Source: a virus
Virus record (IMG/VR): IMGVR_UViG_3300045999_010429
Location: 1 to 49,658 of that record
DNA length: 49,658 nucleotides
Strand: one strand, 5' to 3'
The position numbers and the translations under genes are program-made. Of the stretch, positions 12,128-37,926 are shown in pieces. The notes beneath the pieces were generated by a model. It was given only the letters and a program-made list of their open reading frames with translations, was not told where the DNA came from and ran no database searches. Position 1 is the stretch's first letter, and the number at the start of each line of letters is the position of its first letter.

Positions 12128-12781
12128 ATGCCTATTAGATACTATCCACAGAATCGAATAATAACAAACCTCTACACAAGAGGCCAGTTCAGTACTCCTG
12201 ATGGGAAAGTATATACCGGCAGGTATTACAAAACATACGACGGACAAGCGTTCACCGGTGCTACACCGATCTTAGGAAAAAATCAACCTCTCCGTCCCAT
12301 AGTTCAAGGTGATCCTCAACACGCCGGAGGAAGAGAGTATGGCGGCGGTGTATACGGAAGTCTTAGAGATATTGGAAGAACTATAACTTTAAACGAGGAG
12401 GGGGAAGATATACGCGGTGTACTTACCGAGTTAAAACCCTTCTACCCTCGTCCTACAGAAGATGATTATGCACGCGGGTATTTTACCCGTTACTTCGCTA
12501 AAGAAGTCACAGGACCTCGAACTATCTTTGAAATATCTCAGCCCGATTGGACAAAGATACAGAACGGGGATATAGACCCAGAGTCTTTAGGGTATGAAAC
12601 CGCCGAAATACTGTGGCAATTAACAGGCCCGTTAAACAACAAGCGAATCTCTCAGTATCAAATTCAAGGAGGCGTTTACGATACTAATAAAAGAGTTACC
12701 GAAGGAGAGGCAAGAACTTTTCTAGGTCTGGTAGAGTATATTGGAGGAGATTACACTAAGTTTGCTAGGATAACGTCTTAA
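12128..12781 (+). CDS. Hypothetical virion protein in baseplate operon
   Basis: The 217-residue protein is rich in Tyr, Gly and Thr, with repeated YTGRYY and FTGATP-like short motifs at its N-terminus. It has no membrane segment or catalytic motif that I can see. It follows the hub gene by 15 bp and is the last gene of the tail block. A tail or baseplate accessory role is likely from context, but the family is unknown to me. TATTTAT lies only 4 nt before its ATG. Confidence 0.6.
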   Translation: MPIRYYPQNRIITNLYTRGQFSTPDGKVYTGRYYKTYDGQAFTGATPILGKNQPLRPIVQGDPQHAGGREYGGGVYGSLRDIGRTITLNEEGEDIRGVLTELKPFYPRPTEDDYARGYFTRYFAKEVTGPRTIFEISQPDWTKIQNGDIDPESLGYETAEILWQLTGPLNNKRISQYQIQGGVYDTNKRVTEGEARTFLGLVEYIGGDYTKFARITS

Positions 12782-12834: not shown

Positions 12835-14142
12835 ATGTATTACGTTGTTGAGACAAAAGAACAGCTTGCAAGACTGCCAAAAACAGAGGAGTGTTTTATT
12901 GATTTAGTTACTCTTTCTGAAGAAACGCACCCCTTACTTACCTCTCCCTGCACACTCTACTATAACGATTTTGAAAAAGGATACATTATTCCGATAAATC
13001 ATTCAGAGGGGTTTTCGTTAAGTCTAGACGACATACAGAATTTTCTGTTTGATATTGAAAAAGTTTACCTGTTAGATAAAAAATGGCACTCTTACTATTT
13101 TTACCTGCCTCAGGCCGTAGACCTATACTTTAATGTACTAGATAAAGACGGAGAAATTAAAGATTTTCAATGCTACACTCCTGTTCATCTAGACTTCCAC
13201 AATAAATTCAAGTATTCTGAAGAAGTAAATACATTGGTACCTCTCTCAAAACACTACGAGAGATGTGAATGTATGTTTGAAGCCGTTAAAAGCTACGTCA
13301 ACACGGAAAAAAACTTAGAATGGCAAAACAATTACATAAAAGCCTACAAATGGGTAGAAGAACAGGGGCTGACGTTAAATGAAAGGGTTTTTGATAAGTT
13401 TTTTGAACCTACATGGAAGGTTAGATCAATAAGAGATAACAAGATATACACAAGCTATAACCTTTATAACATAACCTCCAGACCAACCAATGCATTTAAC
13501 GGTATAAACTTCCTAGCTTTCAATAAAGAAAATGGGTCAAGAGCAGCTTTTATACCGCAAAACGACGTTTTAGTGGAGTTTGACTTTGACGGATACCATA
13601 TTCGGCTTATTGCAAACATGTTAGGAATTTTATTACCTTCTAATGAGTCAATCCACGACATATTAGGTAAGCAGTACTTCGGTAAAACGGAGCTAACTCC
13701 GGAAGAGTACCAAGAATCCAAGAAGATTACGTTTAGGCAGTTATATAATGGAGTAGAAGATCAGTACAAAAGTATTGAGCTTTTTAAAGAGATTGACGAA
13801 TTCATACAAAGTATGTGGGAGGAGTGTAAGCGACAAGGATCTCTTACTTTACCCAACGGTAGAAAGCTAAAAGGAAAGGATTTTACTCCTCAAAAGCTTT
13901 TCAACTACTACGTACAGTGTTTAGAAACCGTAAACAACGTTAAAAAATTAATTTCCTTAAGAGAATTATTTAAAGGTAAGAAAAGCAGGGTAATACTCGT
14001 AGTATACGATTCTATCCTAATAGATTATTCGGTAGAAGACGGAAAAGGTTTCTTAAAGCAAATTAAAGATGTTTTAGAAGAGGGCGGATATCGAGTGAAA
14101 GCTCAAAAAGGAGATAACTATAGCTTTTCTAAAGAAAATTGA
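12835..14142 (+). CDS. Short family A DNA polymerase-like protein with degenerate exonuclease domain
   Basis: The 435-residue protein resembles a shortened DNA polymerase I. Palm motif A appears at residue 250 (DFDGYHIRLIA, compare DYSQIELRxLA). An O-helix-like segment lies at 296-306 (KKITFRQLYNG), and motif C is seen as VVYDS with Asp392 (usual HD replaced by YD). The N-terminal 130 residues follow the layout of the 3'-5' exonuclease of the other polymerase in this window (35614-37926). However, its DxE motif is DLV and the second acidic motif is lost, so proofreading is probably absent. Both polymerase Asp residues remain, so activity is possible. It heads the replication block before SSB and UvsX. 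It may be a specialised or regulatory polymerase. Confidence 0.72.
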   Translation: MYYVVETKEQLARLPKTEECFIDLVTLSEETHPLLTSPCTLYYNDFEKGYIIPINHSEGFSLSLDDIQNFLFDIEKVYLLDKKWHSYYFYLPQAVDLYFNVLDKDGEIKDFQCYTPVHLDFHNKFKYSEEVNTLVPLSKHYERCECMFEAVKSYVNTEKNLEWQNNYIKAYKWVEEQGLTLNERVFDKFFEPTWKVRSIRDNKIYTSYNLYNITSRPTNAFNGINFLAFNKENGSRAAFIPQNDVLVEFDFDGYHIRLIANMLGILLPSNESIHDILGKQYFGKTELTPEEYQESKKITFRQLYNGVEDQYKSIELFKEIDEFIQSMWEECKRQGSLTLPNGRKLKGKDFTPQKLFNYYVQCLETVNNVKKLISLRELFKGKKSRVILVVYDSILIDYSVEDGKGFLKQIKDVLEEGGYRVKAQKGDNYSFSKEN

Positions 14143-14152
14143 ACTATTTATT

Positions 14153-14572
14153 ATGGCATATATTGAACTAACGCAAGACCAATTGAAAAACAAGTTATTC
14201 TGTACATTTTCTCCAAAAGATAAGCTGGAAGAAACGTTAAATGTGATTCAGAGAGAATACTCTATCATGTACGGAAAAATTTTTGTACTTGAATCTGTAG
14301 ATTCTGAAGAATTACTTTGTACGTATAACATTGAGATTGAAGGAAGTACAACAAAAGTTCTTCCAAATACTATCTTACTTCACCGTAAGAAAGAGACCAA
14401 TACTCTCTACACTATCAATAGCCTCAACCTTTTAATTAAGTCTTTAAACGAAGGAGTTCTCGATACTTCTTTTCGAATTAATTGGCCTGATTACAGAAAC
14501 ACTGTCCTTTTATCTCAAGGAGAGGAACTAAAGAGGCTTTCCACAAAAATTCACAGAATAGTTAACGTATAA
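14153..14572 (+). CDS. Hypothetical protein between polymerase-like gene and SSB
   Basis: This soluble 139-residue protein has mixed alpha/beta character and alternating hydrophobic strands (KIFVLESVDSEELLCTYNIE, TKVLPNTILLHRKK). I do not recognise its family. It starts 10 bp after the polymerase-like gene and is followed by a 68-bp gap and the SSB gene. A replication-associated role is suggested only by its neighbours. Confidence 0.62.
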   Translation: MAYIELTQDQLKNKLFCTFSPKDKLEETLNVIQREYSIMYGKIFVLESVDSEELLCTYNIEIEGSTTKVLPNTILLHRKKETNTLYTINSLNLLIKSLNEGVLDTSFRINWPDYRNTVLLSQGEELKRLSTKIHRIVNV

Positions 14573-14640: not shown

Positions 14641-15450
14641 ATGGCAATGGATTTAGGCGCAATTAAGTCTAAACTAAGTGCTTTGCAGACTCAAAAGCAA
14701 GGCAGTCAGAAGAGAGATATGTCTCTCATTCTTTGGAAACCCACCGTAGGTAAGCATTCGGTACGTATTGTACCTGCAACGTGGGATCGTTCTAATCCTT
14801 TCAAGGAGGTCTTGGTACATTACGGAATTGGTAACCGTACTATGGTTTCTCTTCAGAACTTCGGTGAAAAAGATCCAATTGTTGAATTCGCCAAGCAACT
14901 TGCATCAAGTGGCGATAAAGAGAATTGGATGATGTCTCGCAAACTTGAGCCGAAGATGCGCGTATTTGTACCCGTGATTGTTCGTGGTGAGGAAGAAAAA
15001 GGTGTCCGTCTTTGGGAATTCGGTAAGCAGATTTATGCTGAATTGTTGAGTCTTGCTGACGATCCAGATGTTGGAGATTACACCGATGTTATTCAGGGCC
15101 GTGATATTACTATTGAAACTACAGGACCCGAGACTAACGGTACAAGCTTTAATCAATCTAAAGTACGTGTTCGTACAAAAACTACTCCTTTGTCAGAGGA
15201 TGCTGCTGAGGTTGAAAAGTGGTTGAATAATCAACCTGAACCCCTCAGTATTTTCAAGAAATATTCTTACGAGGAAATGAAAGATTCTCTTCTCAGTTGG
15301 CTTAATCCTGAAGAGAGTGCTGATGAGCCTGCACCTGCTGCTGCACCTAAGAAAGAAGCAGCTCCCGCTCCAAAGCCTGCATCTCTCTCACTAAACACTC
15401 CCAAGGCTAAACCAAGCATTGACGAGGAATTTGATGATCTATTTAAGTAA
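14641..15450 (+). CDS. Single-stranded DNA-binding protein, T4 gp32-like
   Basis: The 269-residue product has the gp32 layout. A basic N-terminal arm (GAIKSKLSALQTQKQGSQKR) is followed by a core starting with LILWKPTVGKHSVRIVP, then an Ala/Pro/Lys linker and an acidic C-terminal tail (IDEEFDDLFK). Such tails recruit partner replication proteins. It coats single-stranded DNA during replication and recombination. It is followed 7 bp later by UvsX, its functional partner in T4. Codon use here contains more GGT, CGT and AAG codons than the neighbouring genes, as expected for an abundant protein. Confidence 0.88.
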   Translation: MAMDLGAIKSKLSALQTQKQGSQKRDMSLILWKPTVGKHSVRIVPATWDRSNPFKEVLVHYGIGNRTMVSLQNFGEKDPIVEFAKQLASSGDKENWMMSRKLEPKMRVFVPVIVRGEEEKGVRLWEFGKQIYAELLSLADDPDVGDYTDVIQGRDITIETTGPETNGTSFNQSKVRVRTKTTPLSEDAAEVEKWLNNQPEPLSIFKKYSYEEMKDSLLSWLNPEESADEPAPAAAPKKEAAPAPKPASLSLNTPKAKPSIDEEFDDLFK

Positions 15451-15457
15451 TTAATTT

Positions 15458-16534
15458 ATGGCCAAATCAATTAAAGCCTCGCTTAACGAAAGTGTAGCGG
15501 GTGCTGTCAAGGGTACTTTTAGTCTCGATAAGTTTATTGCATCTAAAAACCTGTCGAGTACTTCGATTAAAATGAAAAACCAAGAGTGGATTCCCTTGTC
15601 TAAAGCTTTTCAAGACTGTCTATCTATTCCAGGTATACCCGTAGGCCATATTACATTACTTCGAGGACATTCTGATACAGGTAAGACCACCGCACTTCTT
15701 GAGGCTGCAGTTAGCGCACAGAAAGTAGGTATCTTACCTGTTTTCATTATTACTGAGATGAAATGGAATTGGGATCACGCCAAGCAAATGGGCTTACAGT
15801 TTGAGAATGTACCTAACGAAGATGGAGAGGTAGCAGACTATAAAGGCTTTTTTATCTACGTAGATAGAGAAAGACTAAACACTATTGAAGACGTAGCAGC
15901 ATTTATTGCCGACCTTTTAGATGAACAAAAGAAGGGTAATCTACCCTATGACTTACTGTTCCTCTGGGATTCTGTAGGATCTATTCCAAGTAGATTGTCT
16001 GTAGAGTCTAATAAGAATAACAACGAGTGGAACGCAGGTGCTATGTCTCAGCAGTTTGGTAATTTTATTAACCAGAAGATTGTTTTATCTCGTAAGCAAA
16101 GTCAGCCCTACACCAATAGTATGCTTGCAGTAAACAAGATCTGGGTTGCTAAAGCAGAGAATATTATGGCCCAGCCCAAGATGAAGAATAAGGGCGGTGA
16201 TACTATGTATTTCGATGCATCTCTTATTATTACTTTCGGTAATGTAACCAATTCCGGAACTAATAAGATTAAAGCAACTAAGAACGGTAAAGATGTAGAG
16301 TTTGCAAAGCGTACTAAAGTAAGCTGCGATAAGAATCACGTTAATGACGTTACTTCTACTGGAAGAGTTATTATGACTGCACACGGATTTATCGATGATA
16401 CCAAGCAGGCAATCGATGCCTATAAGAAACAGTACTCTAAGGATTGGTTAAAGACTCTTGGATCTAACGATTTCGATGTAGTAATCGAAACGGATGAAGA
16501 TAACAAAAATGTGTTTGATCCTACAGAAGAATAA
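15458..16534 (+). CDS. uvsX: UvsX/RecA-like recombinase
   Basis: The 358-residue protein carries a Walker A loop GHSDTGKT at residues 70-77 and a Walker B-type strand LLFLWDSVGS at about 165-174. The ATPase core follows the RecA/UvsX pattern, including an FITEMKWNWDHAK stretch after the first helix. It would form filaments on ssDNA for strand exchange, recombination-dependent replication and repair. It lies 7 bp after the gp32-like gene and is followed by repair and helicase genes, the expected T4-like neighbourhood. The acidic C-terminus ends in DPTEE. Confidence 0.9.
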   Translation: MAKSIKASLNESVAGAVKGTFSLDKFIASKNLSSTSIKMKNQEWIPLSKAFQDCLSIPGIPVGHITLLRGHSDTGKTTALLEAAVSAQKVGILPVFIITEMKWNWDHAKQMGLQFENVPNEDGEVADYKGFFIYVDRERLNTIEDVAAFIADLLDEQKKGNLPYDLLFLWDSVGSIPSRLSVESNKNNNEWNAGAMSQQFGNFINQKIVLSRKQSQPYTNSMLAVNKIWVAKAENIMAQPKMKNKGGDTMYFDASLIITFGNVTNSGTNKIKATKNGKDVEFAKRTKVSCDKNHVNDVTSTGRVIMTAHGFIDDTKQAIDAYKKQYSKDWLKTLGSNDFDVVIETDEDNKNVFDPTEE

Positions 16535-16558: not shown

Positions 16559-17020
16559 ATGACAAGAATTAATGTGGGTATTCCGCCCAAAGAACTTAGT
16601 AATAAGCATTTAATTGCTGAACATAGAGAGCTAAAACGTATACCAAACGTAGTAGCCAGGGGCAGATGTAATCTCAAGAATATACCTGCTCAGTTTTCAC
16701 TCGGTAAAGGTCATGTATCGTTCTTTTACGACAAACTAGGATATTTAAAAGAGCGGTACATCGACCTCTACAACGAGTGTATCAATAGAGGTTTTAACGT
16801 TCAGAATTATCTTATATCCTGGGAAGGTATACCTGCAGAATTAATGAACGGCTATTCTCCGACAGAGAATGACGTTCGAATAATCCGCGAAAGGATAGCC
16901 GAGAGATTGGCCAATCCGATTGCTAAACAGAAGAAGAATGGATTACAGAAAGATGTTCGAGCAGATGGAGAAGCAGGAAGCGGTACCCTTATACAGAAAC
17001 AGCAGAGTATTACTTGTTGA
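16559..17020 (+). CDS. denV: Pyrimidine dimer DNA glycosylase / endonuclease V
   Basis: The 153-residue protein is clearly related to T4 endonuclease V (138 residues). It starts MTRIN with the catalytic Thr2, keeps HLIAEHRELKR with the residue equivalent to T4 Glu23 (Glu24 here), and keeps GHVSFFYDKLGYLKER. The enzyme removes UV-induced pyrimidine dimers and nicks the abasic site. The C-terminal 25 residues are a Lys/Gln-rich extension overlapping the next gene. It has its own host-type promoter, suggesting early expression. UV repair fits a phage exposed to sunlit water, which is an inference. Confidence 0.93.
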   Translation: MTRINVGIPPKELSNKHLIAEHRELKRIPNVVARGRCNLKNIPAQFSLGKGHVSFFYDKLGYLKERYIDLYNECINRGFNVQNYLISWEGIPAELMNGYSPTENDVRIIRERIAERLANPIAKQKKNGLQKDVRADGEAGSGTLIQKQQSITC

Positions 17021-17954
17021 TTCACTAAATACTTTTCTCCGCAGCTTTGCAGCTATCGGACACGTAAATCCCTCTGGAAGTCATATTGGAGGTCTTGGCG
17101 GTTTTCTTAAATCTATAGGAGCTGCTATTAGATACCTACAACCTACTAGAGTTATTCTTGTGTTTGACGGACAAGGAGGATCTACTAACAAAAGATACCT
17201 CTATCCGGAATATAAAGCTAACCGGCATATAACAAAGATATCAAACTGGGATGCTTTTGACAACCAGGAAGAAGAATCAGAATCGATAACGGCTCAAATC
17301 GTGCGTCTGGTTGATTATCTCAAGTGTCTCCCCGTTGATTTAGTTATTATAGATAAAGTAGAAGCCGACGATGTTATTGGGTATCTCTCAAGGCAATTTA
17401 ACGAACAAGTATTTATACTATCTACCGATCAAGACTACCTGCAGCTTGTAACAGAGAAAGTATCCGTCTACTCTCCGATTAAAAAAATTATCTATACTCC
17501 TACCAACATAACTAAGGAGTACGGTATCCCACCTCACAATTTCCTTACTCATAAGATTATTGTAGGCGATAAAGGGGATAACGTTCCAGGAGTCAAGGGT
17601 ATTGCAGCAAAAACGTTAATTAAGCTATTTCCCACTATAACTACCGAAGATAGAGTTACGTTAAAAGACTTGTTAAAAGAGTGTGAAGGAAAGGATAAAA
17701 GATACGCAGATGTCTATAATTTTCGAAAGCAGCTTGAAATAAATCAAAAGCTGATGGATTTAGAGAATCCAAATATCCCTGAACCAGATAAAGAAACTTT
17801 GAATAACGTGGTAGCTAACCCAAGCAGTAATTTTAATCCCGAGCATTTTATTAAACTGTACAACGAAGACCAATTAGGAAAAACCTTAATGAGTCCTCAC
17901 CTATGGCTTAATGAAATATTTACAAATTTATCCAAATACGAGTTGAAAGATTGA
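16938..17954 (+). CDS. 5'-3' exonuclease / RNase H of the FEN family (T4 Rnh-like)
   Basis: About 338 residues from the ATG at 16938; a TTG at 16920 and an ATG at 16953 are alternatives. All of these starts lie inside the end of denV. FEN family motifs are visible: an N-terminal VLLVDSLNTFLRS, VILVFDGQGG, an EADDVIGYLS acidic motif, STDQDYLQL, and a helix-hairpin-helix VGDKGDNVPGVKGIAAKT. The enzyme removes RNA primers from lagging-strand fragments. This complements the polymerase at 35614, which lacks a 5' nuclease domain. The overlap with denV implies coupled translation. Confidence 0.87.
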   Translation: MDYRKMFEQMEKQEAVPLYRNSRVLLVDSLNTFLRSFAAIGHVNPSGSHIGGLGGFLKSIGAAIRYLQPTRVILVFDGQGGSTNKRYLYPEYKANRHITKISNWDAFDNQEEESESITAQIVRLVDYLKCLPVDLVIIDKVEADDVIGYLSRQFNEQVFILSTDQDYLQLVTEKVSVYSPIKKIIYTPTNITKEYGIPPHNFLTHKIIVGDKGDNVPGVKGIAAKTLIKLFPTITTEDRVTLKDLLKECEGKDKRYADVYNFRKQLEINQKLMDLENPNIPEPDKETLNNVVANPSSNFNPEHFIKLYNEDQLGKTLMSPHLWLNEIFTNLSKYELKD

Positions 17955-17976: not shown

Positions 17977-19350
17977 ATGAGCGTTCTAAATCAACTAAAT
18001 GCCTACGGTGTAAGCTTTCAAATTAAAGTTCTATCAAGCTTACTTAAGCATAGAGAATTTTTGCAGAGTATCTATGATATCCTTGAAGAGGATTATTTTG
18101 ATAACCCAGCCCATAAGTGGATTGTAGAAGAGATTCTTAAGTATCACTATAAGTATCATACCACGCCCACCTTAGATGTACTTCAAGTAGAAGTAAAGAA
18201 GATAGAGAACGAGGTATTGAAAGTATCTGTAATTGAGCAGCTAAAAGAAGCTTACAAAGCATCTAACGAAGATAGAGATTTCGTAGAACAAGAGTTTTCC
18301 AACTTTTGTAAAAACCAGCAACTAAAGAAAGCCCTGCTATCTTCTGTTGAATTACTTGAGAAGGGACAGTACGACGATATTCGTTATCTTATTGATACTG
18401 CACTAAAAGCAGGTCAAGATAAAAATATCGGTCACGAGTACGAAAAGGATGCCGAGACTCGTTATCGACTAGAAGAAAGAGGCCCACAACCTACCCCCTG
18501 GGAGCATATAAATGAACTACTACAGGGAGGAATAGGATCCGGCGACTTAGGTATTATTTTCGGTAATCCGGGCGGAGGTAAGAGCTGGATGCTAGTTGCG
18601 TTAGGTGCAACGGTGGTAGCAGCAGGAGGTACAGTAGCTCACTATACACTCGAACTTTCAGAAACGTACATGGGTAAGAGATATGACGCTATTTTTACCG
18701 GTATCAGAATACAGGATTTAGGTAAACATAGAAAAGAAGTAGATGAGGCGGTAGGCAAACTACCCGGCAAGCTAATCATCAAGGAATTCTCAATGGGTAA
18801 AGCATCTATATCTACTATTGAGAGTCATATTCAGAAAATTACCGACCTTGGACATAAACCAGACCTTATCATTATTGACTACGTTGATCTCCTGAAGTCA
18901 AAAAGAAAATCTATAGACAGAAAAGATGAGATCGATGATATTTATGTCTCCACCAAAGCACTTGCTCGTGATATTAAGATTCCTATTTGGACTGTATCTC
19001 AGGTAAATCGAGCCGGTGCAAAAGATGACGTTATCGAAGGCGACAAAGCAGCCGGGTCTTACAACAAGATTATGATTGCAGACTTTGCGATGTCATTGTC
19101 TAGAAAGAGGTTAGATAAAGTAAACGGTACAGGTAGGGCACATATCATGAAAAACCGGTACGGTGGTGACGGTATGACTTATCCTGTAAAAATTAATACT
19201 GAAAACGGTAATATTGAGATTCAAGCACGCGAAATGGGTGAGGATGAATTTGTTCAAGAAGGATCTCCCATCCCAGGAAAACCCGTTACCGGATTCAGTG
19301 CAGAAGAGAAAAATTTTCTACAACAAAGGTTTTTTGAATTAGGGAAATAA
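17977..19350 (+). CDS. Replicative DnaB-type helicase (T4 gp41-like)
   Basis: The 457-residue protein has a helical N-terminal domain followed by a RecA-like helicase core. Walker A is GNPGGGKS at about residues 193-201, Walker B is LIIIDYVDLL near 300, and a later VSQVNRAGAKDD motif matches DnaB motif H4. It probably unwinds the fork as a hexamer. No zinc-finger/TOPRIM primase domain is present in the chain, so primase must be separate and lies outside what I can identify here. It follows the exonuclease gene by 22 bp. Confidence 0.88.
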   Translation: MSVLNQLNAYGVSFQIKVLSSLLKHREFLQSIYDILEEDYFDNPAHKWIVEEILKYHYKYHTTPTLDVLQVEVKKIENEVLKVSVIEQLKEAYKASNEDRDFVEQEFSNFCKNQQLKKALLSSVELLEKGQYDDIRYLIDTALKAGQDKNIGHEYEKDAETRYRLEERGPQPTPWEHINELLQGGIGSGDLGIIFGNPGGGKSWMLVALGATVVAAGGTVAHYTLELSETYMGKRYDAIFTGIRIQDLGKHRKEVDEAVGKLPGKLIIKEFSMGKASISTIESHIQKITDLGHKPDLIIIDYVDLLKSKRKSIDRKDEIDDIYVSTKALARDIKIPIWTVSQVNRAGAKDDVIEGDKAAGSYNKIMIADFAMSLSRKRLDKVNGTGRAHIMKNRYGGDGMTYPVKINTENGNIEIQAREMGEDEFVQEGSPIPGKPVTGFSAEEKNFLQQRFFELGK

Positions 19351-27782: not shown

Positions 27783-28736
27783 ATGAAAAAACAAGCAGTG
27801 TTATCATTGTCGGGCGGGATGGATAGCTCTACCCTACTCCTGCACCTTCTTGCAAACGGTTTTCAAGTAACAGCACTATCTTTCGACTACGGCCAAAAGC
27901 ACCGTGTTGAACTTGAGCGCGCTAAATCATTAGTAGATTATATTAATGATAGAATGTTTTATACTAAACAAGATAACTATGTAAAGCATCAGGTTATCAA
28001 ATTAGACGGACTACAACAACTTCTCAACTCAGCACTTGTTGAAGGAGGGAAAGATGTTCCTGAAGGGCATTACGAGCAGGATAATATGAAAGAAACAGTA
28101 GTACCTAACCGTAATAAAATATTCTCCTCTATCATACAGGCAGTTGCTTTATCTATAGCGACAAAGCCGATTGGAGATGACTGTTCTGTAGGTCAAGAAG
28201 TAGCTATTGCATTAGGTATTCACGCAGGCGATCACGCCATTTACCCGGACTGCCGTCAAGAATTTAGAGACGCCGATATGGAAGCTTTTAGAATGGGTAA
28301 TTGGAATTCAGAACTAGTAGGATTTTATACTCCGTATCTCTATACCGATAAGCTTGGCATTTTACAAGACGGTGCCATGTGTTGTGAAGGGTTGGGATTA
28401 GACTTTAACGAAGTGTACAAACGTACTAATACAAGTTATAAACCAATTCAAATCGGTAACGTATGGTACTCGGATTATAAATCAGCAGCATCAGTAGAAC
28501 GTATTGAAGCATTTACTAAACTAGGACGTCCTGATCCTGTTGCATATGCAAACGAAACCGGTCCTGTAAAATGGGAAGTAGCAAAAGAATATGTAGAGCA
28601 GGTATTATCAAAGTATGCTGAAGAGAAAATGAAAGCTAACGCTATTGCTAATCCTCCTATGTTAGAAGGTACTGATAAAGCCTACTCTCCCACAGCTTTG
28701 TCTTACCAGCACGTAGCTACAGAAGGAAGAAGTTAA
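27783..28736 (+). CDS. queC: QueC-like 7-cyano-7-deazaguanine synthase lacking the zinc cysteines
   Basis: The 317-residue protein has the N-type PP-loop SGGMDSS at residues 9-15 and further QueC marks (FDYGQKHRVELERA, VVPNRN). It is longer than typical QueC (about 225 residues). The zinc site of QueC (SC followed by CxxCxxC) aligns with TNTSY and NVWYSDYKSAASVERIEAF at about 212-236, where all four cysteines are replaced. It should convert 7-carboxy-7-deazaguanine to preQ0, which the downstream QueF would use. The altered site may change stability or product, so activity is not assured. Confidence 0.82.
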   Translation: MKKQAVLSLSGGMDSSTLLLHLLANGFQVTALSFDYGQKHRVELERAKSLVDYINDRMFYTKQDNYVKHQVIKLDGLQQLLNSALVEGGKDVPEGHYEQDNMKETVVPNRNKIFSSIIQAVALSIATKPIGDDCSVGQEVAIALGIHAGDHAIYPDCRQEFRDADMEAFRMGNWNSELVGFYTPYLYTDKLGILQDGAMCCEGLGLDFNEVYKRTNTSYKPIQIGNVWYSDYKSAASVERIEAFTKLGRPDPVAYANETGPVKWEVAKEYVEQVLSKYAEEKMKANAIANPPMLEGTDKAYSPTALSYQHVATEGRS

Positions 28737-28765: not shown

Positions 28766-29548
28766 ATGGCATTAATAAGTCACGAAATACCTAAGCAGCT
28801 GTTTCCTTATCACGATCTTATTAGCGATTATCCCTACGTATTAGGTCATTTGCTAAATAATGATCGACAGTATACAGAGTTTTATAAAGAGAAACTTAAG
28901 ACTGCCCCTTACTCTATATTGGATAACTCTGCTTTTGAACTCGGTCAATCAATCCCAGGAGAGGAGTTGTACGAGCTTGGAGAAGAGTTTCAACCTACGC
29001 ACTTAGTGCTTCCCGATAAAGTAAATGACTACCGGCAGACTATGGAGAATGCTGTAGAATATCTCGGTAATTATAGGTCGGATAAAGTGAAGTACATCGG
29101 AGTATGTCAAGGAGACACATTTGAAGATATTGCTGATTGTATTGATTTTTATACTGAAAAAGATATTGATATTATTGCATTGCCTTTTGACCTAGTACCA
29201 GATTCTGACTACGTGACAGTACGTTTTCGTTTCTTGAATTGGTGGTATTCTAATAGGTATCGCTTTAGCGGCCGACTTCACAAATTCCATCTACTTGGAT
29301 GCCAGAATCCGGTTGAGTTTCAGCTTTTTAAGTATAATCAACAGCATTTAACTAGTTATATTTATTCCTTGGATACTAGCTCACCTATTGTAAATGGATG
29401 GTCAGGAAATAAACTAGGACCTAACGGTCTTACCGCTCCTAAACCAAAAGCTAAATTAGCTGATAACCTAGATATTGAACTGTCTAAAGAGCAGCTTGAA
29501 TTAATTTTTGATAACGTTAAAACTTTTAGAACTTATGTCAGTAAGTAA
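28766..29548 (+). CDS. dpdA: DpdA-like DNA transglycosylase (TGT family)
   Basis: The 260-residue protein follows the tRNA-guanine transglycosylase/DpdA pattern. ILDNSAFELG holds the equivalent of the conserved Asp in the TGT DSGGF motif. THLVLPDKVNDYRQT, GVCQGDTFEDIADCI, HLLGCQNPVEF and SLDTSSPIVNG (second conserved Asp) follow. Phage DpdA proteins exchange guanine in DNA for a 7-deazaguanine base. Its place between queC and queF strongly supports a DNA modification role rather than tRNA queuosine. The specificity (preQ0, preQ1 or a derivative) cannot be read from the sequence. Confidence 0.76.
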   Translation: MALISHEIPKQLFPYHDLISDYPYVLGHLLNNDRQYTEFYKEKLKTAPYSILDNSAFELGQSIPGEELYELGEEFQPTHLVLPDKVNDYRQTMENAVEYLGNYRSDKVKYIGVCQGDTFEDIADCIDFYTEKDIDIIALPFDLVPDSDYVTVRFRFLNWWYSNRYRFSGRLHKFHLLGCQNPVEFQLFKYNQQHLTSYIYSLDTSSPIVNGWSGNKLGPNGLTAPKPKAKLADNLDIELSKEQLELIFDNVKTFRTYVSK

Positions 29549-34601: not shown

Positions 34602-35617
34602 AACTAGACAAGTATAATAAACTGCGGTTGAAGCTCGAGGTGCATAAGCTCGAGCAAAACTATTTTACCCTAGATAGAATACTGTACTACTTTTCTTTTC
34701 TAGGTAATATCTTTTTGATCTACTTTGGATACTTTTTTGTAAAGTCTATTACAGACAGTATTCCACCGCTATTCCCTTTCCAGAATACTTTTTTTACTAT
34801 TTTTGTAGCTCTCTTTCTTACTGGGTATGAACTTACAAAACGGTTTGTACTAGAGCAGCTATCGATTAGCATTTTACAAATCAAAAAGTTCACCGCCACT
34901 ATTGCCATTGGATCTCTTATCTGTTTAGGTTTAATTGCAGGAAGCTTTTATCTTTCCATTAAAGGAGCTCACAGACTTATAGATAATACTGAAACGATTC
35001 AAACTGTAGTAGAAGCTACCACCTCTCAAAAAGCAGATTCAGTAGCAAGCTATTACGACAAGGAGATTCAGTACTACAGAAATCAACCGACTAAAACTAG
35101 GACTGATAGACAGTACCGGGACTCTATTGTAGCTACCTTACAGCAAACTAAAGATGCTAAGTTGAAAGAGATAGAGGGTAAGTCTCAAGAAAAGGCTGCT
35201 ACAAAGCTTGGCGAGAGCAGTGAAAATTCCACAGCATTCTTCTTTATAACAGTATTTCTTGAATTGCTTATCCTAATAGGGGTAGGGTTTAATGCATTCT
35301 ATACTATAGGTAGTTACGACGAAACTAAAAAACTTTTACAAACTCCCAAGTTCAAACAGTTGGAGCTTAACTTAAAACTTCTTAGATTGTATTATCAGAA
35401 CGGTAAGAAGCTAGCTAACGATCCTACACTATCGTATAACAAGTTTCAATCCCTGGTACAGACACAAGGTATTTACTGCTCACAAAAAGACTTAAAAGCG
35501 TTTATTACCCTGTGCCAGGAGTTAGAAATTGTTAGAGATTCCAGAGGTAGGAGAAAAGAGTTAACAATGTCTTACGATGAAGCGAAAAAACTGATAGAGA
35601 ATCAAGAAGGATTATGA
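34598..35617 (+). CDS. Membrane protein with extracytoplasmic coiled-coil, unknown function
   Basis: The 339-residue protein starts at GTG 34598, overlapping the bS21 stop. It has about four membrane helices (near residues 30-50, 63-82, 98-124 and 212-235). A charged, partly coiled-coil loop lies between the third and fourth (SQKADSVASYYDKEIQYYRN). The soluble C-terminal domain looks helix-rich, like a winged-helix (YNKFQSLVQTQGIYCSQKDL). It overlaps the polymerase gene by 4 bp, so it is coupled to both neighbours. I do not recognise the family. Confidence 0.65.
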   Translation: MKLDKYNKLRLKLEVHKLEQNYFTLDRILYYFSFLGNIFLIYFGYFFVKSITDSIPPLFPFQNTFFTIFVALFLTGYELTKRFVLEQLSISILQIKKFTATIAIGSLICLGLIAGSFYLSIKGAHRLIDNTETIQTVVEATTSQKADSVASYYDKEIQYYRNQPTKTRTDRQYRDSIVATLQQTKDAKLKEIEGKSQEKAATKLGESSENSTAFFFITVFLELLILIGVGFNAFYTIGSYDETKKLLQTPKFKQLELNLKLLRLYYQNGKKLANDPTLSYNKFQSLVQTQGIYCSQKDLKAFITLCQELEIVRDSRGRRKELTMSYDEAKKLIENQEGL

Positions 35618-37926
35618 TGCAAGAAAAAAGTTATGTCACGGTCAACGATAAGGAGACCTTCAAGCAATTAGTACAGCACATTACAGAAAGCGAATATGTA
35701 GCTTTCGATACCGAGACCGATAGTCTGAACATGCGTAAAGGCAAGATTATCGGTTTCTCTGTCTCTGGTGAGGTCGGGAAAGGGTTTTATATGCCTACAA
35801 TGGTCTGGAACGGAGAGCGTTTACAGGAGTTGTTAATAGAAGGTAAAGGAGCACACGAATTAGCTAAGTTTGCTATTACAAAGCTCGTAGATAAAAAGCT
35901 TATCTGTCATAACGCCTCCTTCGACTTACGGTACGTAAAGAATTTTTACGGTGTTGATTTACTGCCCTCTCTTCATGCAGATACTTCCCTAATCGTACAC
36001 ACAGTAAAAGAAGAAGGTGCATTCGGATACGGTAATCCTTTTGGTTTGAAATCCATTGCAATAATGGTTCAGAAGGAGATTGGTTTAGATGTAGAGACTG
36101 AAGCTAACGAAGAGCAGATTGCTCTAAAAGAAAATATTAAAGCTAACGGAGGTTCTACTTCGAAAGATAATTTCGAAATCTACAAAGCAGATATGGAGAT
36201 ACTTTCCAAGTACGCTGCCGCCGATACCGACCTTACCCTCCGTATCTATAACCACTTCTATCAGATTCTAGTTCAAGAAGGCTTGGAGAAGTTCTTTTTT
36301 GAAGACGAAGTAATGCCCGTATATAGAGAGGTTACTATACCAATGGAGGAGCATGGTATCAGACTTGATATCCCTTTAATAGAGCGTACCAAAGAGAGTA
36401 TAACGAAAGACTTACAGGAGCAATCTGAGATGATTGTTAAAGAGCTATTAAAGGAATCGAAGGTAAGAGCGTGGATTATTGATCAGGCCGTGGAAGCATA
36501 TCCGCCTAAAAGTAAGGGCACGTTTGCTCAACGTCTTCTAGAGCAGAATGGAGTAGAGCTCCCTAAATCCGAAAAGACCGGTAAGTTTACCATCAATAAA
36601 GCAGCTGTTACCGCACTACCTCCTTCAGTTATCAAGGATTTCTTGATGACTGGCGATATAGAATGTCTCAGCAAAGATCAGATTGTAAAGGCTAGTTTAT
36701 CTCTTTGGAAAGAAGATAATGACGGGCAATTTTTCAATATCCAGTCTAAAGATCAAATGGGTAAGATTGCCTTCGACGTATTGGGGGAAAAGCCTATCTC
36801 AAATACTACCAAAGGTAAGCCGCAGTTTGATGAAGACATGATTCAGTCTATCAAGGACAAGTATGCTTGGGCAAAGCATTTACGCCTCTATAATAAACTC
36901 ACTAAGATCAAAACCGCATATATTGACCGGTTTCTTGATGCAGCAGAAGATGGTAGATTCTACCCATATTTTAAGCAGAACGGTACCGTATCGGGCCGTT
37001 ACGGATCAGACATGCAGCAGTTACCTAAGCCGCTTGAACCTGGACAAGACGAGGAAATGATTATGAACTACACAAACGTAGTTCGTGCATTTTTTATTGC
37101 CGACGAGGGAGCTAAGATACTCGATACCGACTATGCATCTCTAGAGCCTAGAGTGTTTGCTACTGTAGCAGGCGACCAGGGATTGAAAGATATCTTTAAT
37201 AATGATTTAGACTTCTATTCTCACATTGCTATCAAAACTGAGAAACTAGAGGGAGTAAGTGCACATACTAAAGCACCTAATTTCCTTAAAAAGGTAGATC
37301 CGGTTAAGAGACAAACTGCTAAGGCTTATTCACTAGGTGTGCCGTACGGTATGTCTGGATATGCCCTTGCAATGTCTTTGGGTGTAGATAGGAAAGAAGG
37401 GGAGAGACTTGTAGAAGGTTATCTAGATGGATTCCCTGAACTGAGAAAGTGGAGAGAAAACTCACGTGCGTTTGTAAAGGAGAATGGTTACATTAAGAAT
37501 AAAGTAGGGCGTATTAGACATCTCCCTCAAGCTAAAGAGATCTATAATATCTTTGGAGATAAACTTATTGAAGATTGGCGATTTAGGAAGCAAGTAGAGC
37601 AGGAGTACGGAGCAGAAGCTGCAACTAATCTATATAGAGATTATAAAAATGCTCTAAACAACGTTTTAAACTTTCAGATTCAAAGCTATTCAGCTAGTAT
37701 CGTAAATAGAGCTGCTTTACAGATTAATCGTAGGTTTAAACAAGAAGGAATAAACGGCCAAGTGATTTGTCAGATTCATGACCAATTAATTTGTCAGGTA
37801 AAAGACGAAGATGTAGAGAGAGCTTGCCCAATCGTTCAAGACTGTATGGAAAATACAACTAAATTAGACGGGGTAGATCTTATAGCGATTCCAGAAGTGG
37901 CAAAAAATTTCCGTGACGGACACTAG
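35614..37926 (+). CDS. polA: DNA polymerase I family protein with 3'-5' exonuclease
   Basis: The 770-residue polymerase has an intact N-terminal proofreading domain (Asp32 and Glu34 in AFDTETDSL, later HNASFDLRY and AAADTDLTLRIY). A complete family A polymerase domain follows: motif A DTDYASLEPRVFA near 504-516, motif B RQTAKAYSLGVPYG, and motif C QIHDQL with His722-Asp723. No 5'-3' exonuclease domain is present; a separate FEN gene lies at 16938. This is probably the main replicative polymerase. It starts inside the end of the preceding membrane protein gene (ATGATG). Confidence 0.93.
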   Translation: MMQEKSYVTVNDKETFKQLVQHITESEYVAFDTETDSLNMRKGKIIGFSVSGEVGKGFYMPTMVWNGERLQELLIEGKGAHELAKFAITKLVDKKLICHNASFDLRYVKNFYGVDLLPSLHADTSLIVHTVKEEGAFGYGNPFGLKSIAIMVQKEIGLDVETEANEEQIALKENIKANGGSTSKDNFEIYKADMEILSKYAAADTDLTLRIYNHFYQILVQEGLEKFFFEDEVMPVYREVTIPMEEHGIRLDIPLIERTKESITKDLQEQSEMIVKELLKESKVRAWIIDQAVEAYPPKSKGTFAQRLLEQNGVELPKSEKTGKFTINKAAVTALPPSVIKDFLMTGDIECLSKDQIVKASLSLWKEDNDGQFFNIQSKDQMGKIAFDVLGEKPISNTTKGKPQFDEDMIQSIKDKYAWAKHLRLYNKLTKIKTAYIDRFLDAAEDGRFYPYFKQNGTVSGRYGSDMQQLPKPLEPGQDEEMIMNYTNVVRAFFIADEGAKILDTDYASLEPRVFATVAGDQGLKDIFNNDLDFYSHIAIKTEKLEGVSAHTKAPNFLKKVDPVKRQTAKAYSLGVPYGMSGYALAMSLGVDRKEGERLVEGYLDGFPELRKWRENSRAFVKENGYIKNKVGRIRHLPQAKEIYNIFGDKLIEDWRFRKQVEQEYGAEAATNLYRDYKNALNNVLNFQIQSYSASIVNRAALQINRRFKQEGINGQVICQIHDQLICQVKDEDVERACPIVQDCMENTTKLDGVDLIAIPEVAKNFRDGH

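Follow-up and report, generated by a model that had tools for sequence, protein, structure and literature searches.

The divPolA1 gene and its family

The window, by which we mean the whole 49,658-nucleotide stretch of viral DNA analyzed, carries an open reading frame (ORF) with an ATG start whose 435-residue product is followed by genes for replication and recombination (Table 1). The first-pass annotation had described this product as a short family-A-polymerase-like protein beside a single-strand DNA-binding protein (SSB) and UvsX; the neighbors are present, with the SSB being of the gp32 type, and the polymerase relationship holds. The protein matches Pfam DNA_pol_A with an E-value of 1.9e-6, scoring 27.5 bits where the curated cut-off is 34.3, a level that some of its relatives exceed, and it matches the PHROG_17 DNA polymerase with an E-value of 2.8e-6. 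A single-sequence search of the PDB with the window protein returned no match, and a profile was required to reach Klenow (4.8e-9 with the family profile), while alignment of the same profile to regular PolAs gave a probability of 97% (E = 1.2e-10, hhalign). Among phage genomes, tblastn identified gp001 of Flavobacterium phage immuto as a homologue (34.6% identity over 98%, E = 1e-75), which is annotated as DNA polymerase family A, with further homologues in Microcystis phage Mel-JY01 and in a 484-kb huge-phage genome.

The window protein is a new member of the already published divPolA1 family, which was named from 14 phages, immuto among them (Yutin et al., 2024, Virol J 21:200, PMC11348598). 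In a literature search, the name occurred only in that paper and its preprint. As described in its available text, divPolA1 phages have a regular PolA, PolB or PolC in addition, and the protein has conserved palm residues, a truncated thumb and an inactivated exonuclease; its authors independently inferred that it still acts as a polymerase and takes part in replication (Yutin et al., 2024). The family now extends from that short description to at least 540 IMG/VR loci, being widespread in environmental phage contigs and inseparable from one small unnamed protein. Conservation was assessed on 146 complete homologues, nearly all from IMG/VR, which form 50 clusters under 70% identity. One further copy, 35% identical, lies in a bacterial MAG bin (L171, 10001-11323) on an immuto-like phage contig, which also carries a primase 75% identical to that of immuto.

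Table 1. Coordinates of the features discussed, in positions of the window.
Feature	Position	Strand	Basis or remark
divPolA1, 435 aa, thumbless, exonuclease-dead family-A DNA polymerase relative	12835..14142	+	ORF, Pfam/PHROG, AF2 model, published family
12-residue linker, residues 191-202	13405..13440	+	97 residues in E. coli Pol I, including the thumb
Thr-Ser-Arg-Pro motif, Arg216-Pro217	13480..13485	+	Arg216 is the Klenow R668 counterpart; both invariant
Motif A, DFDGYH, residues 250-255	13582..13599	+	D705 kept, extra Asp252, His255 replaces E710
Motif B, residues 292-304	13708..13746	+	Tyr292 replaces R754; Lys296 = K758, Phe300 = F762, Tyr304 = Y766
Motif C, Tyr391-Asp392-Ser393	14005..14013	+	Klenow H881-D882-E883 (HDE)
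Small obligate partner, 139 aa, HRKK..NTLYT..N..LN core	14153..14572	+	58/58, 77/80 and 14/14 loci or records; pLDDT 93.1; no known family
gp32-type single-strand DNA-binding protein	14641..15450	+	Pfam gp32 2.1e-11; PHROG_1192 5.8e-23
UvsX recombinase	15458..16534	+	PHROG_97 2.8e-18
DenV-like pyrimidine-dimer glycosylase (endonuclease V)	16559..17020	+	PHROG_1183 1.5e-38
FEN-type 5'-3' exonuclease	16920..17954	+	Pfam 5_3_exonuc_N 6.9e-31
DnaB-type replicative helicase	17977..19350	+	PHROG_19 1.5e-75
QueC	27783-28736		7-deazaguanine DNA modification gene
DpdA-like transglycosylase	28766-29548		33% to immuto DpdA
Regular PolA with exonuclease domain, probable replicase	35614..37926	+	Pfam DNA_pol_A 6.8e-61, DNA_pol_A_exo1 8e-13; PHROG_17 3.9e-97

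In all but two of 58 loci, the genes run in the order divPolA1, small protein, SSB, (UvsX), FEN and DnaB (56/58), and in the window a ribonucleotide reductase gene also lies downstream. Inspected loci without a flagged UvsX have an ORF of about 380-390 residues in its place, which by eye appears to be a diverged UvsX. The DenV-like gene sits between UvsX and FEN, overlapping the FEN ORF, and in some relatives the DenV match falls inside a 468-residue ORF, as if fused to FEN. A DenV-like glycosylase was found in 37 loci, a count relied on here in place of the tally in the 58-locus table, where ORFs that also match FEN confound the DenV figure. Directly upstream of divPolA1, a 217-residue protein (12128-12781; 51/58 loci) without a Pfam or PHROG match is possibly structural, given that a large baseplate-like gene precedes it. 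The T4 clamp profile PF02916 gave no match in any record searched, and the controls were likewise without a match.

A Pol I fold without a thumb

Both an HMM search and a structure prediction had been suggested as checks in the first-pass annotation, and both bear out the family-A relationship, the predicted structure having the Pol I fold with a palm that keeps the metal-binding pair Asp250 and Asp392. The AlphaFold model (pLDDT 93.8, pTM 0.91) aligns with the Bst Pol I large fragment over 409 of its 435 residues (Z = 26.9). While the overall fold is common to both, the differences from the Klenow and Bst large fragments are considerable. The segment from the first palm helix to the TSRP motif, 97 residues long in E. 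coli Pol I, is reduced to 12 in divPolA1, such that about 85 residues equivalent to the thumb are gone, an absence on which the annotation had not remarked, and the profile alignment to Klenow jumps over the thumb. The fingers are also 16 residues shorter, with 29 rather than 45 residues separating the motif B Tyr from the next conserved strand, and the FEN nuclease is encoded as a separate gene. In the structure alignment, the N-terminal half corresponds to the Pol I exonuclease domain rather than to a promoter-binding one. This exonuclease layout is preserved while the equivalents of its acidic residues E357, D424 and D501 are lost, as had been noticed from the sequence at the outset. The exonuclease domain of Bst Pol I is inactive too.

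The dead exonuclease, the truncated thumb, the kept palm residues, the presence in addition to a regular polymerase and the replication genes downstream are all shared with divPolA1 as published (Yutin et al., 2024). The divPolA2 of barbaviruses is likewise a divergent extra PolA lacking a classical thumb; by the description given in that paper, however, it is paired with PolB, has variable neighborhoods and carries a unique N-terminal domain in place of a dead exonuclease (Yutin et al., 2024).

A fixed but altered active site

The first-pass annotation had read the catalytic Asp residues of motifs A and C as kept, with Tyr-Asp in place of His-Asp and a His in place of the motif A Glu, and the family alignment bears out each of these readings across all 146 sequences: Asp250 (D705), Asp252, His255, Tyr391 and Asp392 (D882) are each invariant. 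The same is true of Arg216, Lys296, Phe300, Tyr304 and Gln361, so that the Klenow-mapped residues R668, D705, K758, F762, Y766, Q849 and D882 are all intact, and Asn357 (N845) is found in 145 of 146. Set against these are changes that are themselves fixed, namely E710 to His, H881 to Tyr and S707 to Asp in every sequence and R754 to Tyr (Tyr292) in 145 of 146, the last being absent from the earlier annotation. At the E883 position (residue 393), Ser occurs in 129 homologues and Ala in 17. The family thus differs from canonical Pol I at the motif A Glu, at Arg754 and at HDE, where His, Tyr and YDS or YDA are fixed instead. A compensation of the lost E883 by Asp252 was considered and set aside as not diagnostic, since E883 is missing from the regular PolA of these phages as well, being replaced by Gln, and position 707 of that enzyme is often Glu.

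Only 33 of the 435 positions are conserved at 97% or above, and active-site positions are enriched among them; selection is strongly purifying, with a median pairwise dN/dS of about 0.07. Taken with the confident model, this pattern suggests that the enzyme is active, with a modified nucleotide site, rather than in decay. Because R754, E710, H881 and E883 are all substituted, nucleotide binding may differ from that of Pol I, or dNTPs may perhaps not be the substrate. The family-wide fixation of this unusual active site is an addition to the published description, the available text of which gives neither the fixed His and Tyr changes nor the large family size (Yutin et al., 2024).

A small protein encoded with every divPolA1

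Behind divPolA1 lies a gene for a small basic protein that the first-pass annotation did not mention and that the available text of the family description does not discuss (Yutin et al., 2024). It is encoded in all 58 divPolA1 loci with 6.5 kb of downstream sequence and in 14 of 14 records tested, while in the reverse search divPolA1 lies just upstream in 77 of 80 small-protein loci, the remaining three being cut by a contig edge. The gap between the two genes is usually within about 25 nucleotides, with at least one intervening gene in some PolB-type phages. This obligate pairing is a new result. The protein has an invariant core (HRKK..NTLYT..N..LN and W111) and no relative among Pfam, PHROGs or PDB sequences. 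Its fold, although confidently modeled, gives matches to viral origin-binding (VIA, Z = 4.7) and RRM-like (Foldseek E = 0.15) folds that fall below a trustworthy level, and its one clear fold match is an uncharacterized phage homologue.

The small protein is probably a DNA-gripping or adaptor part that acts in place of the missing thumb, presumably within a physical complex. Alternatively, it could be a regulator or replisome adaptor and not a polymerase subunit. The nearest precedent for the proposed pairing is the phage T7 DNA polymerase, a family A enzyme with a full thumb that needs a small host protein, thioredoxin, for its grip on DNA. Unlike the T7 system, the thumb of divPolA1 is gone, and its partner is phage-encoded and unrelated to thioredoxin.

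Coexisting replicases, primases and 7-deazaguanine genes

A full PolA is encoded elsewhere in the window, as first read, and is 56.5% identical to immuto gp199. In a control set made up of this copy and 79 relatives (n = 80), E710 and R754 are present in every sequence and the four exonuclease acids in essentially all. These regular PolAs also have Leu at the 762 position (80/80), where divPolA1 has Phe, and their motif C reads HDQ in place of the usual HDE (Gln in 78/80). The suggestion that two diverged PolA types in one phage reflect a division of labor stands on this point, with the regular enzyme keeping its exonuclease acids and E710 and the short enzyme having a different, family-fixed active site. 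A regular PolA accompanies divPolA1 in the window, immuto and G001-G004, while a PolB does so in G006, G008, G009, G010, G012, G014 and Mel-JY01, and LR756508 has PolB pieces together with a PolC. Given that it coexists with PolB in other phages, the short enzyme is not simply a PolA duplication; these phages swap their main polymerase between families while divPolA1 and the small protein stay.

A separate DnaG-type primase with CHC2/Toprim domains is encoded in all six of the longest or complete records, immuto, Mel-JY01, LR756508, G006, G008 and G014, the last three being contigs of 130-197 kb ranked by length alone, IMG/VR completeness not being given. Pfam DNAG_N by itself was too insensitive to reveal the primase. 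DpdA and QueC are encoded by the window, G001-G004 and immuto, all PolA-type phages. In the PolB-type divPolA1 records, including the complete Mel-JY01 and contigs of 173-197 kb, DpdA is absent and QueC was not found except for weak partial matches in two. The coexisting replicase and DnaG-type primase indicate that divPolA1 does not serve as the replicase or as the sole primase, and its occurrence apart from 7-deazaguanine genes indicates that it is not dedicated to copying deazaguanine DNA. Of the roles raised in the first-pass annotation, priming is therefore unlikely as the main function and the copying of modified DNA in general is unsupported, which leaves lesion bypass and strand displacement as candidates.

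Proposed function and alternatives

The reading we favor, to which we give about an even chance, is that divPolA1 is a catalytically competent, non-proofreading accessory polymerase that makes short tracts with the small protein as its partner. Its place in the phage replisome would be next to a separate replicase with proofreading, which is PolA here and PolB in relatives. At the fork it may extend primers from the phage DnaG-type primase, and/or fill gaps jointly with the FEN nuclease, whose gene lies only a few genes further along, with the 139-residue partner probably helping to grip DNA or the replisome at the site of the absent thumb. Bacterial Pol I carries out gap filling with a fused FEN, and the net effect would be that of a Pol I split into FEN and polymerase. 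Phage replication operons often include a nearby FEN gene, however, and such proximity does not by itself demonstrate joint action.

The main rivals to short-tract synthesis are translesion synthesis and D-loop extension. A translesion polymerase, with an open active site lacking both thumb and proofreading, would copy past damage from within a cassette that includes UV repair genes, and the lost proofreading, the altered nucleotide-binding residues and the recurrence of the DenV-like glycosylase, right behind UvsX in the window, all point that way. This role is nevertheless unlikely, because DenV is missing at the two PolB-type loci inspected (L102 and L109) while divPolA1 is retained, and because in every lineage the gene heads the core replication operon, which suggests constitutive function rather than a response to damage. 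Quite unlikely, too, is a D-loop polymerase that extends the 3' end with which UvsX and SSB invade a duplex, starting recombination-dependent replication before the replicase takes over. SSB and UvsX are constant neighbors and short distributive synthesis would suffice for this task, but the neighborhood fits fork work with FEN and DnaB equally well.

The replacement of the steric-gate Glu by His (146/146, where the partner PolA has Glu in 80/80) and the Ser or Ala at the E883 position raise the possibility of an enzyme that uses ribonucleotides for primer or RNA synthesis. Single-subunit RNA polymerases such as T7 RNAP lack both of these acids. We regard this as decidedly improbable: the invariant His is bulky, unlike the Gly that T7 RNAP has at the steric-gate position; loss of E883 is not diagnostic when the partner PolA has Gln in nearly all copies; the N-terminal half resembles an exonuclease domain and not a promoter-binding one; and all the longest records encode their own DnaG-type primase. 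Replacement of the primase, an idea that arises from the same lost Glu, was rejected as the main role on this last ground. In Pfam searches, divPolA1 has neither Zn-ribbon nor Toprim primase domains, DNA_pol_A being its sole match.

It is similarly improbable that divPolA1 is a catalytically dead scaffold, solely bridging replisome parts. The missing thumb, the dead exonuclease and several changed dNTP-contact residues would fit such a protein, yet the residues that dead enzymes usually lose are invariant here, namely both metal-binding Asp residues, Lys and Tyr of motif B and the residue equivalent to Q849. A specialist copier of 7-deazaguanine-modified DNA, suggested by the DpdA and QueC genes of PolA-type phages, is most improbable of all given the PolB-type records without DpdA.

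Implications

A broader proposal, which we put forward tentatively and consider doubtful, is that divPolA1 and the small protein are the two subunits of one polymerase, with an unrelated phage protein standing in for the thumb, and that this pair is the unchanging center of a replisome in which the main replicase is freely swapped. If true, the pair would be a new architecture for a family-A polymerase. Two questions follow, namely whether a thumbless family-A polymerase can function when its grip on DNA comes from a partner, and for what purpose a phage that already has its own replicase and primase needs divPolA1. An isolated host-phage pair exists in Flavobacterium sp. LMO8 and phage immuto.
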